A DNA stretch of 64,000 nt from Thermodesulfobacteriota bacterium. GTDB lineage: Bacteria; Desulfobacterota_D; UBA1144; Nemesobacterales; UBA2774. How positions within the stretch are numbered: the stretch's first letter is position 1; each line of letters starts with the position of its first letter. Position numbers and translations under genes: made by a program. The stretch covers positions 124,001-188,000 of the forward strand of contig JBFMCV010000001.1 of NCBI GenBank assembly GCA_040754335.1. Reading direction: 5' to 3'. Positions 40,749-46,867 of the stretch are shown here, piece by piece. The notes below the pieces were generated by a model. That model was given only the letters and a program-made list of their open reading frames with translations, was not told the DNA's origin and made no database searches.

Positions 40749-40794
40749 CGGACTTCTAATCCGTAGGTCGGGGATTCGAATCCCTCCGGGCGCG
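40749..40794 (+). repeat. Right attachment-site repeat (attR)
   Basis: 46-base copy of the 3' half of tRNA-Arg, one mismatch (G to A in the T-stem). The 5' half of the tRNA is absent, so it is not a functional tRNA. It marks the distal boundary of the island. Confidence 0.85.
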
Positions 40795-41144
40795 TACCTC
40801 CTTCCCTGGACACAGTGACATCGTTGCATTCATCCAAGGGCGTCCGGTTCCTCCTATTCGTCGGAACCGTTCCCTCCGGGCGCGCACCTCCTTCCCTGGA
40901 CACAGTGACATCGTTGCATTCATCCAGGGGCGTCCGGTTCCTCCTATTCGTCGGAACCGTTCCCTCCGGGCGCGATCCACTTTCCCGAAGTAAACACAGG
41001 GTGATGCCATTTTCCGACAGCGACCGATTCCTCCTATTTTGGATTTAGACTCCTCATCACTTCGATTAAAGGACTCGCCCAAATTAGACCGATTTCTCAC
41101 TAGTTCGAAATCGTTGCTCGCAATCGTTCCCTCCGGGCCCGCCA
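40795..41144 (+). repeat. Tandem units ending in the tRNA-Arg 3' tail
   Basis: Two adjacent 90-base units (40795-40884 and 40885-40974) are identical but for two bases and each ends CGTTCCCTCCGGGCGCG, the tRNA acceptor end. Each also has the inverted pair GGTTCC...GGAACC. A third, diverged and longer unit (40975-41144) keeps the same opening and middle and ends CCCTCCGGGCCCGCCA, including CCA. No protein should be called here: the long minus-strand frame is an artefact of the repeat. Confidence 0.8.
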
Positions 41145-42745: not shown

Positions 42746-42958
42746 CTATTTTCTCGCGCCCGAAAAGAGCCGCTTCAACAGAAGGCCCAGGATGTCCGGC
42801 CTTAATAGCATCGAGATAATGAACTTAAAGTCTTCGGGGCCGAGATAGACCTTTACGTCCCAGAGCCCCACGCCCGTGTCGACGACGACGCTCCCGCCCT
42901 CTACCTTAGTCCCCTTGATTATGACGTCAAGCTCCCCTGCGGGGCTCGCCACCTTCAT
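42746..42958 (-). CDS. Conserved-looking 70-residue protein, unknown
   Basis: Compact mixed alpha/beta protein without a signal peptide: MKVASPAGELDVIIKGTKVEGG, VVDTGVGLWDVKVYLGPEDF, then a hydrophobic helix FIISMLLRPDILGLLLKRLF. A strong GGAGGGAGAACCGGA precedes the ATG, so the gene is likely real. No family recognised. It faces dedA convergently. Confidence 0.6.
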   Translation of the reverse strand: MKVASPAGELDVIIKGTKVEGGSVVVDTGVGLWDVKVYLGPEDFKFIISMLLRPDILGLLLKRLFSGARK

Positions 42959-43333
42959 TCCGGTTCTCCCTCCTCGCGGTCATGGCTTCCCCCCAGCATC
43001 GCCGCCTTTGCCGGATTTCTGATTATCGTTCCCGCCCGTTCATGACTCCGCCGGGTTCCGCCCGATCCCGATAAAGAAAAGGCAATAAGGGTGCCAGCGT
43101 ATTCTCTATTATTTGCCGTATGAGAGCGCAGGGGAGCGGTGTAAGGTGTCAGAAAGTCTTACGAATTACGGGGTGTCAGCCGGGCTCGCCGAGGCCGCGA
43201 TCCGGCGGTCATGCCCTGTCGGGTTCCGTCTCCTCCGCGTATGCCCCTGAAATATCCGCATATTCGCCCGGAGCCCCCGGCGGCTCGCCCTTCTGGCATG
43301 GGATTTGCACTCTATTTCAAGATGGAGACGTCC
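42959..43333. other. Intergenic region before the radical SAM pair
   Basis: 375 bases. The + frame running in from 43211 is proline-rich and lacks a ribosome-binding site, so I treat it as untranslated. Promoters for the flanking divergent genes should be here, but none stands out. Confidence 0.35.
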
Positions 43334-44491
43334 ATGAAAGACATATATGATATGGATTTTTCCATGACCCCGTTCGTGGTGATCTGGGAGGTTACGCAGG
43401 CATGCGACCTCGCCTGCCGCCACTGCAGGGCCGCGGCGATCAATCTGAGGAGCCCGCTTGAGCTTTCGACGGAGGAGGGGTTCGACCTCATCGATAAAGT
43501 CCGCTCCATGGGTACGAATATCTTCGTCCTCAGCGGCGGAGACCCTGTAAAAAGAGAAGATATTTTCGACCTGATCGCGTACGGGGCCCGGAAGGGACTG
43601 CGTATGGCGACCATCCCCGCGGCTACCACCAGCCTGACAGAAGGGCTTGTCGCGAAGCTCAAGGAGGCGGGACTATCTCAGATAGCGTTCAGCCTGGACG
43701 GGCACGACAGGGAGACCCACGACTCTTTCAGAGGGGTTCCGGGTGCCTTCGATCTCACGATGAAGGGAGCGGATTACGCTCATTCGGAGGGCATTCCGCT
43801 CCAGGTCAACACGACTCTGGGCGCCCATAATATCGACTGCTTCGACGAAATCGCCGCGCTCGTAAGGGACCTGGGTGTCGTATTCTGGGAGGTGTTCTTC
43901 CTCGTGCCCATGGGCAGGGGGCGGCTCCTTAAACAAATGAAGTCCCGCCAGTACGAAAGGTTGTTCGAGAAGCTTTACAGGTTTTCAAAAGAGGTCGATT
44001 TCATTGTCAAGATCACGGAGGCCCAGCATTACAGGCGGTACGTTATGGAGCGGGAGGCGGAGGGGAGGGCCCCCGGCGGGAGCCCCTTTCCGGCGGATCT
44101 GCCCGATCGCATGACGCGTGATTTCGGGCCCGGCGGGAGCATAGGTCTTGCCCCGAAGGGCGTCAATTCGGGAAACGGCTTCGTGTTCGTCTCGCACACT
44201 GGCGAGGTGTATCCGAGCGGGTTCCTGCCTTTATCCGCCGGGAACGTGAAGAACGAAAGCATAGTGGATATTTACAGGAGCTCGCCCCTTTTCAGGGAGA
44301 TAAGGGATTACGGGAGGCTCAAGGGCAAGTGCGGCGCGTGCGAGTTCAGGAACATCTGCGGAGGCTCGAGGGCGCGGGCTTATGCCCTCACGGGCGACTA
44401 CATGGAGTCCGAGCCCTGCTGCGCCTTCGTGCCCGAAACCTACAGGCGGAGGGCCCGCGAAGGAGCGGGCGTCCGGCATGCCGGTGCGTGA
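43334..44491 (+). CDS. Radical SAM/SPASM enzyme, AhbD/NirJ-like (TIGR04053 type), copy 1
   Basis: 385 residues. Radical SAM cluster CDLACRHC near residue 27, GGDPVKRED near 78, FSLDGHDRETHDSFRGV near 124, and a SPASM-type C-terminus with CGACEFRNICGGSRARA and EPCC that binds a further iron-sulphur cluster. The sequence follows the TIGR04053 group, close to haem-modifying enzymes AhbC/AhbD and NirJ. It may decarboxylate or modify a tetrapyrrole or a peptide; which is not visible. Start at 43334 has GGAG six bases upstream. Paired with a paralogue and a Crp/Fnr gene. Confidence 0.88.
   Translation: MKDIYDMDFSMTPFVVIWEVTQACDLACRHCRAAAINLRSPLELSTEEGFDLIDKVRSMGTNIFVLSGGDPVKREDIFDLIAYGARKGLRMATIPAATTSLTEGLVAKLKEAGLSQIAFSLDGHDRETHDSFRGVPGAFDLTMKGADYAHSEGIPLQVNTTLGAHNIDCFDEIAALVRDLGVVFWEVFFLVPMGRGRLLKQMKSRQYERLFEKLYRFSKEVDFIVKITEAQHYRRYVMEREAEGRAPGGSPFPADLPDRMTRDFGPGGSIGLAPKGVNSGNGFVFVSHTGEVYPSGFLPLSAGNVKNESIVDIYRSSPLFREIRDYGRLKGKCGACEFRNICGGSRARAYALTGDYMESEPCCAFVPETYRRRAREGAGVRHAGA
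44177..44423 (+). repeat. Gene-conversion tract, copy 1
   Basis: 247 bases encoding the SPASM end of radical SAM copy 1. Identical to 45371-45617 except C/T at 44401 (silent, Tyr). Identity stops abruptly at both ends. Confidence 0.92.
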
Positions 44492-44545
44492 AGCGGGTCC
44501 GTGGGCGCATCCGTGTTTTCCGATTCGCGGTGACGGGGTATAACA

Positions 44546-45685
44546 ATGGCTGCTGAAAGACCTGATATAAACTTCGACCTTTCCCCCTTCATAGTTATAT
44601 GGGAGGTGACACAGTCGTGCGACCTCGTCTGCCTACACTGCAGGGCCGACGCGCGCAGATGCCGGGACCCGCGCGAGCTCACTACGTACCAGGGACGGAA
44701 CCTCATAGACGACATATCCGGGTTCGGATCGCCGCTGCTCGTGCTCACGGGCGGCGACCCTTTGAAAAGGGACGACATATACGACCTTATCTCGTACAGC
44801 GTAAAGAAGGGACTGCGGACGACCGTGTCCCCGAGCGTGACCCCGCTACTTACGGACGAATCCGTCCGCAAGCTCAGGCAGGCCGGCATTTCGAGGCTCG
44901 CTGTTAGCCTCGACGGCTCGGAGCCCTGCATACACGACTCGTTCAGGGGCGTCGAGGGGAGCTTTGCGAGGACGGTCGAGATACTCTCTCTATGCGTCCT
45001 CGAGGGCATACCGATTCAGGTCAATACTACGGTGACCAGGTACAACCTTGACGACTTCGAGAACATAGCGAATCTCATCGGAGGATTCAGCCCTGTCCTC
45101 TGGAGCGTGTTCTTCCTCGTCCCGACGGGGAGGGGGAGGGCGTCGGACGGCGTGAACGCGGAGGAATACGAAGAGGTCTTTGCCAAGATGTACGAACTTT
45201 CGAAGACTGTCCCTTACGACATCAAATCGACCGAGGCCCCTCATTACAGAAGGTATGCGGCTCAGGCGAGGGTGAGGGAAAGGAGGGCCGGCGAATGTCC
45301 GCTCGACGCCTCGGCCGAAAGGAAACGTGACGCGATAGGCAGGGCGCCACGCGGGATAAACGACGGCAAGGGCTTCGTGTTCGTCTCGCACACTGGCGAG
45401 GTGTATCCGAGCGGGTTCCTGCCTTTATCCGCCGGGAACGTGAAGAACGAAAGCATAGTGGATATTTACAGGAGCTCGCCCCTTTTCAGGGAGATAAGGG
45501 ATTACGGGAGGCTCAAGGGCAAGTGCGGCGCGTGCGAGTTCAGGAACATCTGCGGAGGCTCGAGGGCGCGGGCTTATGCCCTCACGGGCGACTATATGGA
45601 GTCCGAGCCCTGCTGCGTTTACGTGCCTAAGGGTTTCGATATGAAAGAACCCGGGGAGGAGTCTGCCCGTGCGGCGGAAATTTAA
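44546..45685 (+). CDS. Radical SAM/SPASM enzyme, AhbD/NirJ-like (TIGR04053 type), copy 2
   Basis: 379 residues with the same architecture: CDLVCLHC near residue 26, TGGDPLKRDD near 74, VSLDGSEPCIHDSFRGV near 118, FFLVPTGRGR near 190, TEAPHYRRYAA near 230 and the SPASM tail. N-terminal two thirds differ markedly from copy 1, but the last 80 codons are almost identical at the DNA level. The stop overlaps the Crp/Fnr start. The TEAPHYRR motif marks the haem-related subgroup. Confidence 0.88.
   Translation: MAAERPDINFDLSPFIVIWEVTQSCDLVCLHCRADARRCRDPRELTTYQGRNLIDDISGFGSPLLVLTGGDPLKRDDIYDLISYSVKKGLRTTVSPSVTPLLTDESVRKLRQAGISRLAVSLDGSEPCIHDSFRGVEGSFARTVEILSLCVLEGIPIQVNTTVTRYNLDDFENIANLIGGFSPVLWSVFFLVPTGRGRASDGVNAEEYEEVFAKMYELSKTVPYDIKSTEAPHYRRYAAQARVRERRAGECPLDASAERKRDAIGRAPRGINDGKGFVFVSHTGEVYPSGFLPLSAGNVKNESIVDIYRSSPLFREIRDYGRLKGKCGACEFRNICGGSRARAYALTGDYMESEPCCVYVPKGFDMKEPGEESARAAEI
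45371..45617 (+). repeat. Gene-conversion tract, copy 2
   Basis: Second copy of the 247-base tract, in direct orientation 1,194 bases downstream of the first, inside radical SAM copy 2. Confidence 0.92.
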
Positions 45686-46367
45686 AAGCTGCAGCACGTG
45701 CGTGCTCAGGGCCGACACCATTTTTTCGGGGCTCGATAATGAAAGCGCCCTCGGGCTCGAGAACATGCTCCAGAAATCTGTTTATCCCGAAGGGGTCGTC
45801 GTTTTTCTCAAGGGTGAGAAGCCCCGCGGAATTTACTGTATCTGCTCGGGACGCGTGAAGCTGTCCGCTCATTCGCCCGACGGCAGGGGTATCGTTGCGG
45901 GTTATCCTTCGGCCGGGAGCGTTATAGGCGTAAGAGAGGTAATGTCGGGCGAGCCGCACGATTTCACGGCGCGCACCGTCCGGGAATCGGAGATCGGCTT
46001 CATGGACCAGGAGCAGTTCCTGGGGCTGCTGAGGAAAAACGGCGGCGTATGTCTCAGACTCGCCGAGTCTCTCGGAGAAGAGCTTTCGAGGGCGTACGCT
46101 GACTTAAGGAATGCGGCCCTCGCCGGGCCCGAAGAGCGCCTCGCATCACTCCTTTTGAGACTCTGCGAGGAGTACGGCGAGACTTCGCCCGAAGGGATAG
46201 CGATAAGACTCGGCGTGAGCCAGGAGGAGATGGCGGAAATGGCGGGTATGTCGAGGAGGACCCTCACGAGGGCGCTCGACAAGCTCAAGAAAATGGAGCT
46301 CATCAAGTGCGGGAGGCGCATTACTATAGTGAGGGATAAGTCGGCGCTTAAAAACCTGATTCCTTGA
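45669..46367 (+). CDS. Crp/Fnr-family transcription regulator
   Basis: 232 residues: N-terminal KFKSCSTCVLR, a cyclic-nucleotide-binding-like beta-roll (FLKGEKPRGIYCICSGRVKL near 45), a long dimer helix, and a C-terminal winged helix with IRLGVSQEEMAEMAGMSRRTLTRALDKL near 180. GTG start with GGGGAGGAG upstream and a 17-base overlap with the radical SAM gene, so one operon. The N-terminal CSTC pair could ligate an iron-sulphur cluster as in Fnr, but only two cysteines are close, so an NO- or haem-sensing DNR type is also possible. Confidence 0.87.
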   Translation: MRRKFKSCSTCVLRADTIFSGLDNESALGLENMLQKSVYPEGVVVFLKGEKPRGIYCICSGRVKLSAHSPDGRGIVAGYPSAGSVIGVREVMSGEPHDFTARTVRESEIGFMDQEQFLGLLRKNGGVCLRLAESLGEELSRAYADLRNAALAGPEERLASLLLRLCEEYGETSPEGIAIRLGVSQEEMAEMAGMSRRTLTRALDKLKKMELIKCGRRITIVRDKSALKNLIP

Positions 46368-46591: not shown

Positions 46592-46867
46592 ATGGGAATA
46601 TATGAAGGCATGGAAAAAAGCAGTTACAAATGGCTGCCCGACGTGGATCTCGAGAAATGCACCGGATGCGGGAGGTGCGTCGATGTATGCACGCCGAAAT
46701 CCCTCAAGGTCGTGAATAACGATTTTGCGATACTAGTCCGCGCCGATACCTGCGGCAGCGAGGGGCACTGCGTCGAGTCCTGCCCCGACGACGCCATTCA
46801 CATGGAGTGGATAGAGATGACGGGGGAGCATACCGCGGGCGAGTGGAAAACGGTCATGAGGTTGTGA
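46592..46867 (+). CDS. 4Fe-4S ferredoxin-type protein
   Basis: 91 residues with one canonical cluster motif CTGCGRCVDVC near residue 23 and a second, altered one, CGSEGHCVESCP near 54 (fewer ligands than CxxCxxC). Likely carries at least one 4Fe-4S cluster and transfers electrons in the cytoplasm. CGGAGG precedes the ATG. It lies just after the Crp/Fnr gene and could supply electrons to the radical SAM enzymes. Confidence 0.82.
   Translation: MGIYEGMEKSSYKWLPDVDLEKCTGCGRCVDVCTPKSLKVVNNDFAILVRADTCGSEGHCVESCPDDAIHMEWIEMTGEHTAGEWKTVMRL

Follow-up and report, generated by a model that had tools for sequence, protein, structure and literature searches.

Conversion of a part of a gene between paralogues is known from the release factors RF1 and RF2, in which a patch of 83-88 residues, covering the greater part of domain 3, was transferred in opposite directions in two lineages (PMC4530459), and long-lasting concerted evolution of prokaryote genes has been described for tuf, mtrA and others (PMC6053082). 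By profile score, the nearest characterised radical SAM family to the two proteins considered here is the heme synthase AhbD (TIGR04545), whose AuxII motif is CX2CX5CX20-38C (PMC10452713). No paper naming TIGR04053, the family of both proteins, was found in the literature search, and a search joining gene conversion and radical SAM returned nothing relevant by title. The locus lies in the window, that is, the whole stretch of 64,000 nucleotides that was analysed, and is best explained by interlocus gene conversion that was limited to one domain and took place between tandem radical SAM paralogues of family TIGR04053, an explanation to which we assign a probability of about 0.92.

Two tandem TIGR04053 genes and their shared tract

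The two genes, the tracts and motifs inside them and the two genes that follow are:

43334-44491, + strand: gene A, encoding a radical SAM protein of NCBIfam family TIGR04053, its start deduced from orthologues
44177-44423, + strand: tract in A, probably converted and the likely recipient, matching 45371-45617 and placed with the B tails by the tail tree
44330-44422, + strand: CX2CX5CX20C motif of AuxII-type ligands in A, contained entirely in the tract, with the Cys columns of B mapped by the offset of 1194
44546-45685, + strand: gene B, tandem paralogue of A, TIGR04053 (468.5 bits against a cut-off of 395)
45371-45617, + strand: matching tract in B, the likely donor, the direction being given by polarised sites
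45524-45616, + strand: AuxII-type ligand motif CX2CX5CX20C in B (Cys327, 330, 336, 357)
45669-46367, + strand: Crp/Fnr-type regulator overlapping the 3' end of B (PF00027 and PF13545)
46592-46867, + strand: 2[4Fe-4S]-type ferredoxin (PF12838 and others)

Gene A, the frame of which is open from an ATG at 43211, upstream of the start given above, reaches 465.9 bits in the profile search against the TIGR04053 cut-off of 395, has the CX3CX2C motif in the form CDLACRHC, and its head groups with the A genes of relatives in the head tree. In the parts outside the tract, identity between A and B amounts to 48% at the protein and 56% at the DNA level. Elsewhere in the window, just downstream of ABC transporter genes, there is a tandem array at 40781-40974 consisting of 2.2 copies of a 90-nt unit which are 98% alike, and a third, more diverged copy comes after it.

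The sequence-only reading had reported 247 shared bases with one silent change between diverged sides, and an ungapped comparison at an offset of 1194 reproduces this exactly: positions 44177-44423 and 45371-45617 differ at a single site, 44401, which is C in A and T in B (GAC/GAT, both Asp). The nearest mismatches are at 44173 and 44176 upstream and at 44424, 44425 and from 44427 onward downstream, and the identity between the genes is about 40-60% per 10-codon window directly upstream of the tract and about 43% directly downstream. What characterises interlocus gene conversion, namely sharp edges with strong divergence on both flanks, is found here. The longest agreeing run between A and B comprises 90 variable columns, and a chance origin of the tract is excluded since such a run was reached in none of 5000 site permutations (P = 2e-4). 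A genome-wide search with 44177-45617 matched the locus itself and the corresponding part of the A head, and nothing else.

The tract corresponds to residues 276-357 of B. In the AlphaFold2 model of B (22 sequences, mean pLDDT 78) the barrel extends to about residue 247, a low-confidence linker follows at 253-275, the C-terminal module opens with a strand at 277-280 and the C-terminus (366-379) is again of low confidence, so the tract spans from the first strand of the module to shortly before the low-confidence C-terminus. It encodes the complete set of four ligands for an auxiliary cluster, Cys327, Cys330, Cys336 and Cys357, which are unchanged throughout the alignment of 22 sequences. In the tract, Ser takes the fourth position of CX2CX5CX2C, Cys ligands that could hold a second auxiliary cluster are absent, and since the further Cys of the full SPASM motif are missing, a single auxiliary cluster would be expected from the sequence. 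The earlier identification of the tract with the SPASM end is therefore correct, with the refinement that only AuxII-type ligands are found.

Relatives, trees and the probable course of the exchange

Relatives were sought among Candidatus Dadabacteria in the genus, family and order of the window's genome, with one genome per species. G001 and G002, both fragmented drafts, belong to the same genus as the window and carry both A and B, which are 3.5 kb apart in G001. A was found without B in G013, G007 and G014, and B without A in G011 and G019; in G016, G021 and G022 the two genes are located on separate contigs. The Crp/Fnr-type gene is a kept neighbour in G001, G002, G011, G013 and G021, and the ferredoxin gene in G001, G002 and G013. 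In G013 (L129) the Crp/Fnr gene is immediately preceded by an A-headed gene with a B-type module, and B was not found; in G011 (L128), whose genome is 59% complete, B occupies this place and A was not found. One or other copy gets lost at the TIGR04053 locus, as seen in these two genomes.

The heads of orthologues are 77-86% identical within the genus and those of A and B 43-50% everywhere. According to the sequence-only reading, ongoing conversion should leave the two tails more alike within a genome than between orthologues, and this is the case in the window, the A and B tails of which share 100% of protein and 99.6% of DNA positions compared with 83-86% DNA identity to orthologue tails. 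The corresponding A/B values are 91.5% and 87.8% in G002, and 87.8% and 84.6% in G001. The tails of the separate-contig pairs in G016, G021 and G022 are only 59-65% identical in protein and 58-61% in DNA, and the single-copy A genes of G007 and G014, compared with those of the window's genus, reach only 55-62% identity in the tail but about 70% in the head; with both kinds of tail so diverged, the module is not intrinsically frozen. Eleven acidobacterial genomes with the paralogues on separate contigs have tails 67-76% identical in DNA, and in protein 56-60% for the heads and 68-77% for the tails. The converted pairs are the tandem pair of the window and that of G002, and the unconverted ones are the separate-contig pairs of G016, G021, G022 and the 11 acidobacterial genomes, which fits the idea that closeness of A and B matters for conversion, in a small sample with few independent cases.

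Two A copies of G022, A1 and A2 (L136, L137), which lie on contigs other than that of B, have B-like final ~30 bases of the module (GN[FY]M[DE]S[DE]P.CIY), possibly as a result of a very short conversion tract or of convergence.

In the head tree A and B are separated with support of 100/100. In the tail tree a 100/100 branch splits the native A tails (G007, G014, G016, G021 and both G022 copies) from the rest, and the A tails of the window, G001, G002 and G013 fall together with all the B tails. The A and B tails of the window pair with each other (96.5/98), and branches that would date the events relative to each other inside the genus have support of at most 66 in the tail data. AU tests on tail DNA rejected the A-versus-B split (p=0.015), the grouping of window A with G001_A and G002_A (6e-41) and that of window B with G001_B and G002_B (0.004), and the heads are compatible with all three of these orthologous groupings.

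Silent sites give the same picture. By the Nei-Gojobori method (NG86), the window tails of A and B have 1.0 silent and 0 replacement differences over 59.5 silent sites (dS 0.02), compared with 23.5-29.5 silent differences (dS 0.58-0.84) between the tails of the window and their orthologues in G001 and G002 and with a dS from about 1.7 up to saturation between the heads of A and B. With 23.5 differences expected, the Poisson probability of one or fewer is 1.5e-9. If this count is taken literally, the last exchange would date back only a few percent of the time since the split from G002, a rough estimate which rests on one change.

That conversion was recurrent is supported by the window tract, by a tract in G002, by the B-type C-terminus of G001_A and by an older replacement of the whole module, shared with G013. 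G002 has its own run of 98 identical nt, equivalent to 44282-44379 of the window, with 30 differences in the remaining 148 positions of the tail (permutation P=2e-4), and in G001_A the resemblance to B continues for about 25 nt downstream of the stop codon.

The proposed course has three steps. In the first, which trees and diagnostic residues suggest, the module-coding 3' part of B would have been copied into A in the ancestor of the window's genus and G013, so that A received a B-type AuxII module joined immediately upstream of the GFVF codons. The diagnostic residues of A in G013 and the window's genus are A-type up to column 290 and B-type from column 298, with column 294 being neither and with an exception at column 353 in two sequences; the present tract starts at column 297, and since the switch falls at this start, the junction was probably already there in the ancestor. 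In the second step, the stretch of ~245 nt would thereafter have been the only part alike enough for homologous recombination, and later exchanges would be confined to the module because the heads, with only ~56% DNA identity, are too diverged to pair. Judging from the positions of the junction, the exact coverage of the module may be explained in this way without selection. A point against the model is that the tails were only ~57% identical when the first step began.

In the third step, which is seen in the sequence itself, the whole stretch in the window was re-homogenised very recently, most likely from B to A, which left one silent difference; the 98-nt run of G002 and the B-type C-terminus of G001_A belong to this step too. 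When polarised with G013 and G011, sites 44188, 44191 and 44250 are B-like in both copies and 44242 is A-like, so with few polarised sites this direction is likely but not certain. The exchange was non-reciprocal, i.e. a conversion or a double crossover and not a simple fusion or duplication, because A and B persist as a pair and each retains its own sequence on either side of the tract.

Alternative explanations

The sequence-only reading had left the choice between recent and recurrent conversion and selection that keeps the module the same for one partner, perhaps the ferredoxin at 46,592. The former is upheld by the tracts, the trees and the AU tests. The latter has found no support, and there is no specific pointer to the ferredoxin. 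Selection at the protein level alone, for example for one common electron-transfer partner, could draw on the presence of every AuxII ligand in the module and on the somewhat higher conservation of the module compared with the heads even in the separate-contig acidobacterial paralogues (68-77% against 56-60% of protein), but the silent sites are homogenised too, with 1 difference in 59.5, the modules of the three Dadabacteria with both genes, G016, G021 and G022, are very different (only 59-65% protein identity), and the single-copy A tails of g2/g5 are less similar to those of the window's genus (55-62%) than the heads are (~70%), which makes this explanation scarcely credible. Selection that retains converted copies, owing to the same redox partner or to joint assembly, is a different matter, being compatible with conversion as a refinement of it. 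The same module was hit in no fewer than three separate events within one genus, and the ferredoxin and Crp/Fnr genes are conserved neighbours; the restriction to the module is, however, already accounted for by its being the sole homologous stretch, and the A/B tails of G002 and G001 are again 12-15% different in DNA, so we consider such an added role of selection rather unlikely. Slightly more doubtful still is a wider proposal that the AuxII module is an exchangeable cassette whose copies are kept in step by recurrent conversion together with selection for a common redox partner, with the identity of the module, and not the catalytic barrel, tracking the electron-transfer partner.

As the window's genome is a draft of 20 contigs, one tail might have been put into both genes during assembly or binning. 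This is very improbable, as the copies differ at 44401 and as, past the tract, A continues with PETYRRRAREG like G002_A (PEDFNRVYREG) and B with PKGF..EI like G002_B; given this differing site and the C-terminus of its own orthologues in each copy, repeat paths were not swapped. Moreover, unlike sequences are not made identical by short-read assembly, and in the independent assemblies of G001 and G002, too, A carries a B-type tail, with only a partial tract in G002. The tandem arrangement and the evident flux of the locus (only an A-headed gene in G013, only B in G011, a spacing of 3.5 kb in G001) could also speak for a recent tandem duplication, or an unequal crossover with fusion, in place of conversion. 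Against this, the heads in the window are near saturation at silent sites, both flanks of the tract are gene-specific and the C-terminus of G013_A still resembles A genes, so it is improbable as a general explanation. A simple recent duplication of the window pair is ruled out by the divergence of the heads; duplication or fusion could still apply as the source of the oldest event.

Enzyme context and comparison with known systems

AhbD makes heme from iron-coproporphyrin III; a tetrapyrrole substrate for A and B would be a guess. In six relatives (L126-L131) a second HemY/CgoX-like gene (protoporphyrinogen/coproporphyrinogen oxidase-like, TIGR00562) adjoins the TIGR04053 gene; no second TIGR00562 gene is present upstream of A in the window (42958-43334), and the window's genome has one TIGR00562 gene, located elsewhere. 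That TIGR04053 might replace the usual last step of heme synthesis is only a lead, because most genomes of the order, with or without TIGR04053, have ChdC-like (PF06778), ferrochelatase and HemN_C matches. G016 and G021, which both carry A and B, have no match to TIGR00562 or ferrochelatase. A and B share the AuxII motif of AhbD (PMC10452713) but are unlike it in scoring below the cut-off of 500 of its profile TIGR04545 (342.6 and 360.8 bits, respectively) and in having no full SPASM motif.

The case shows that the SPASM/Twitch-type module of TIGR04053 enzymes can move in nature from one catalytic barrel to a different one, and trees built on, or functions assigned by, the whole sequence or the C-terminal domain of TIGR04053 genes will be misleading.

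As in the concerted evolution of tuf and mtrA (PMC6053082), the paralogues A and B are closer within a genome than orthologues are, silent sites included; there, however, the paralogues are concerted as genes, whereas here concerted evolution is confined to a single module of two enzymes that have otherwise diverged strongly. The conversion of domain 3 between RF1 and RF2 in Bacteroidia and Chloroflexi (PMC4530459) likewise concerns anciently diverged paralogues and a patch of nearly a whole domain with a common function, and it likewise consists of separate events found by conflicting trees. Those events are single and ancient, one per lineage, and affect release factors, whereas A and B are adjacent radical SAM genes in which one event is very recent and re-homogenisation has recurred within a single genus. 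A and B are clearly an additional case of the already known domain-limited gene conversion, in which the copying of a module is well resolved: both an old and a recent event are seen, and control genomes that carry the genes on separate contigs are unconverted.
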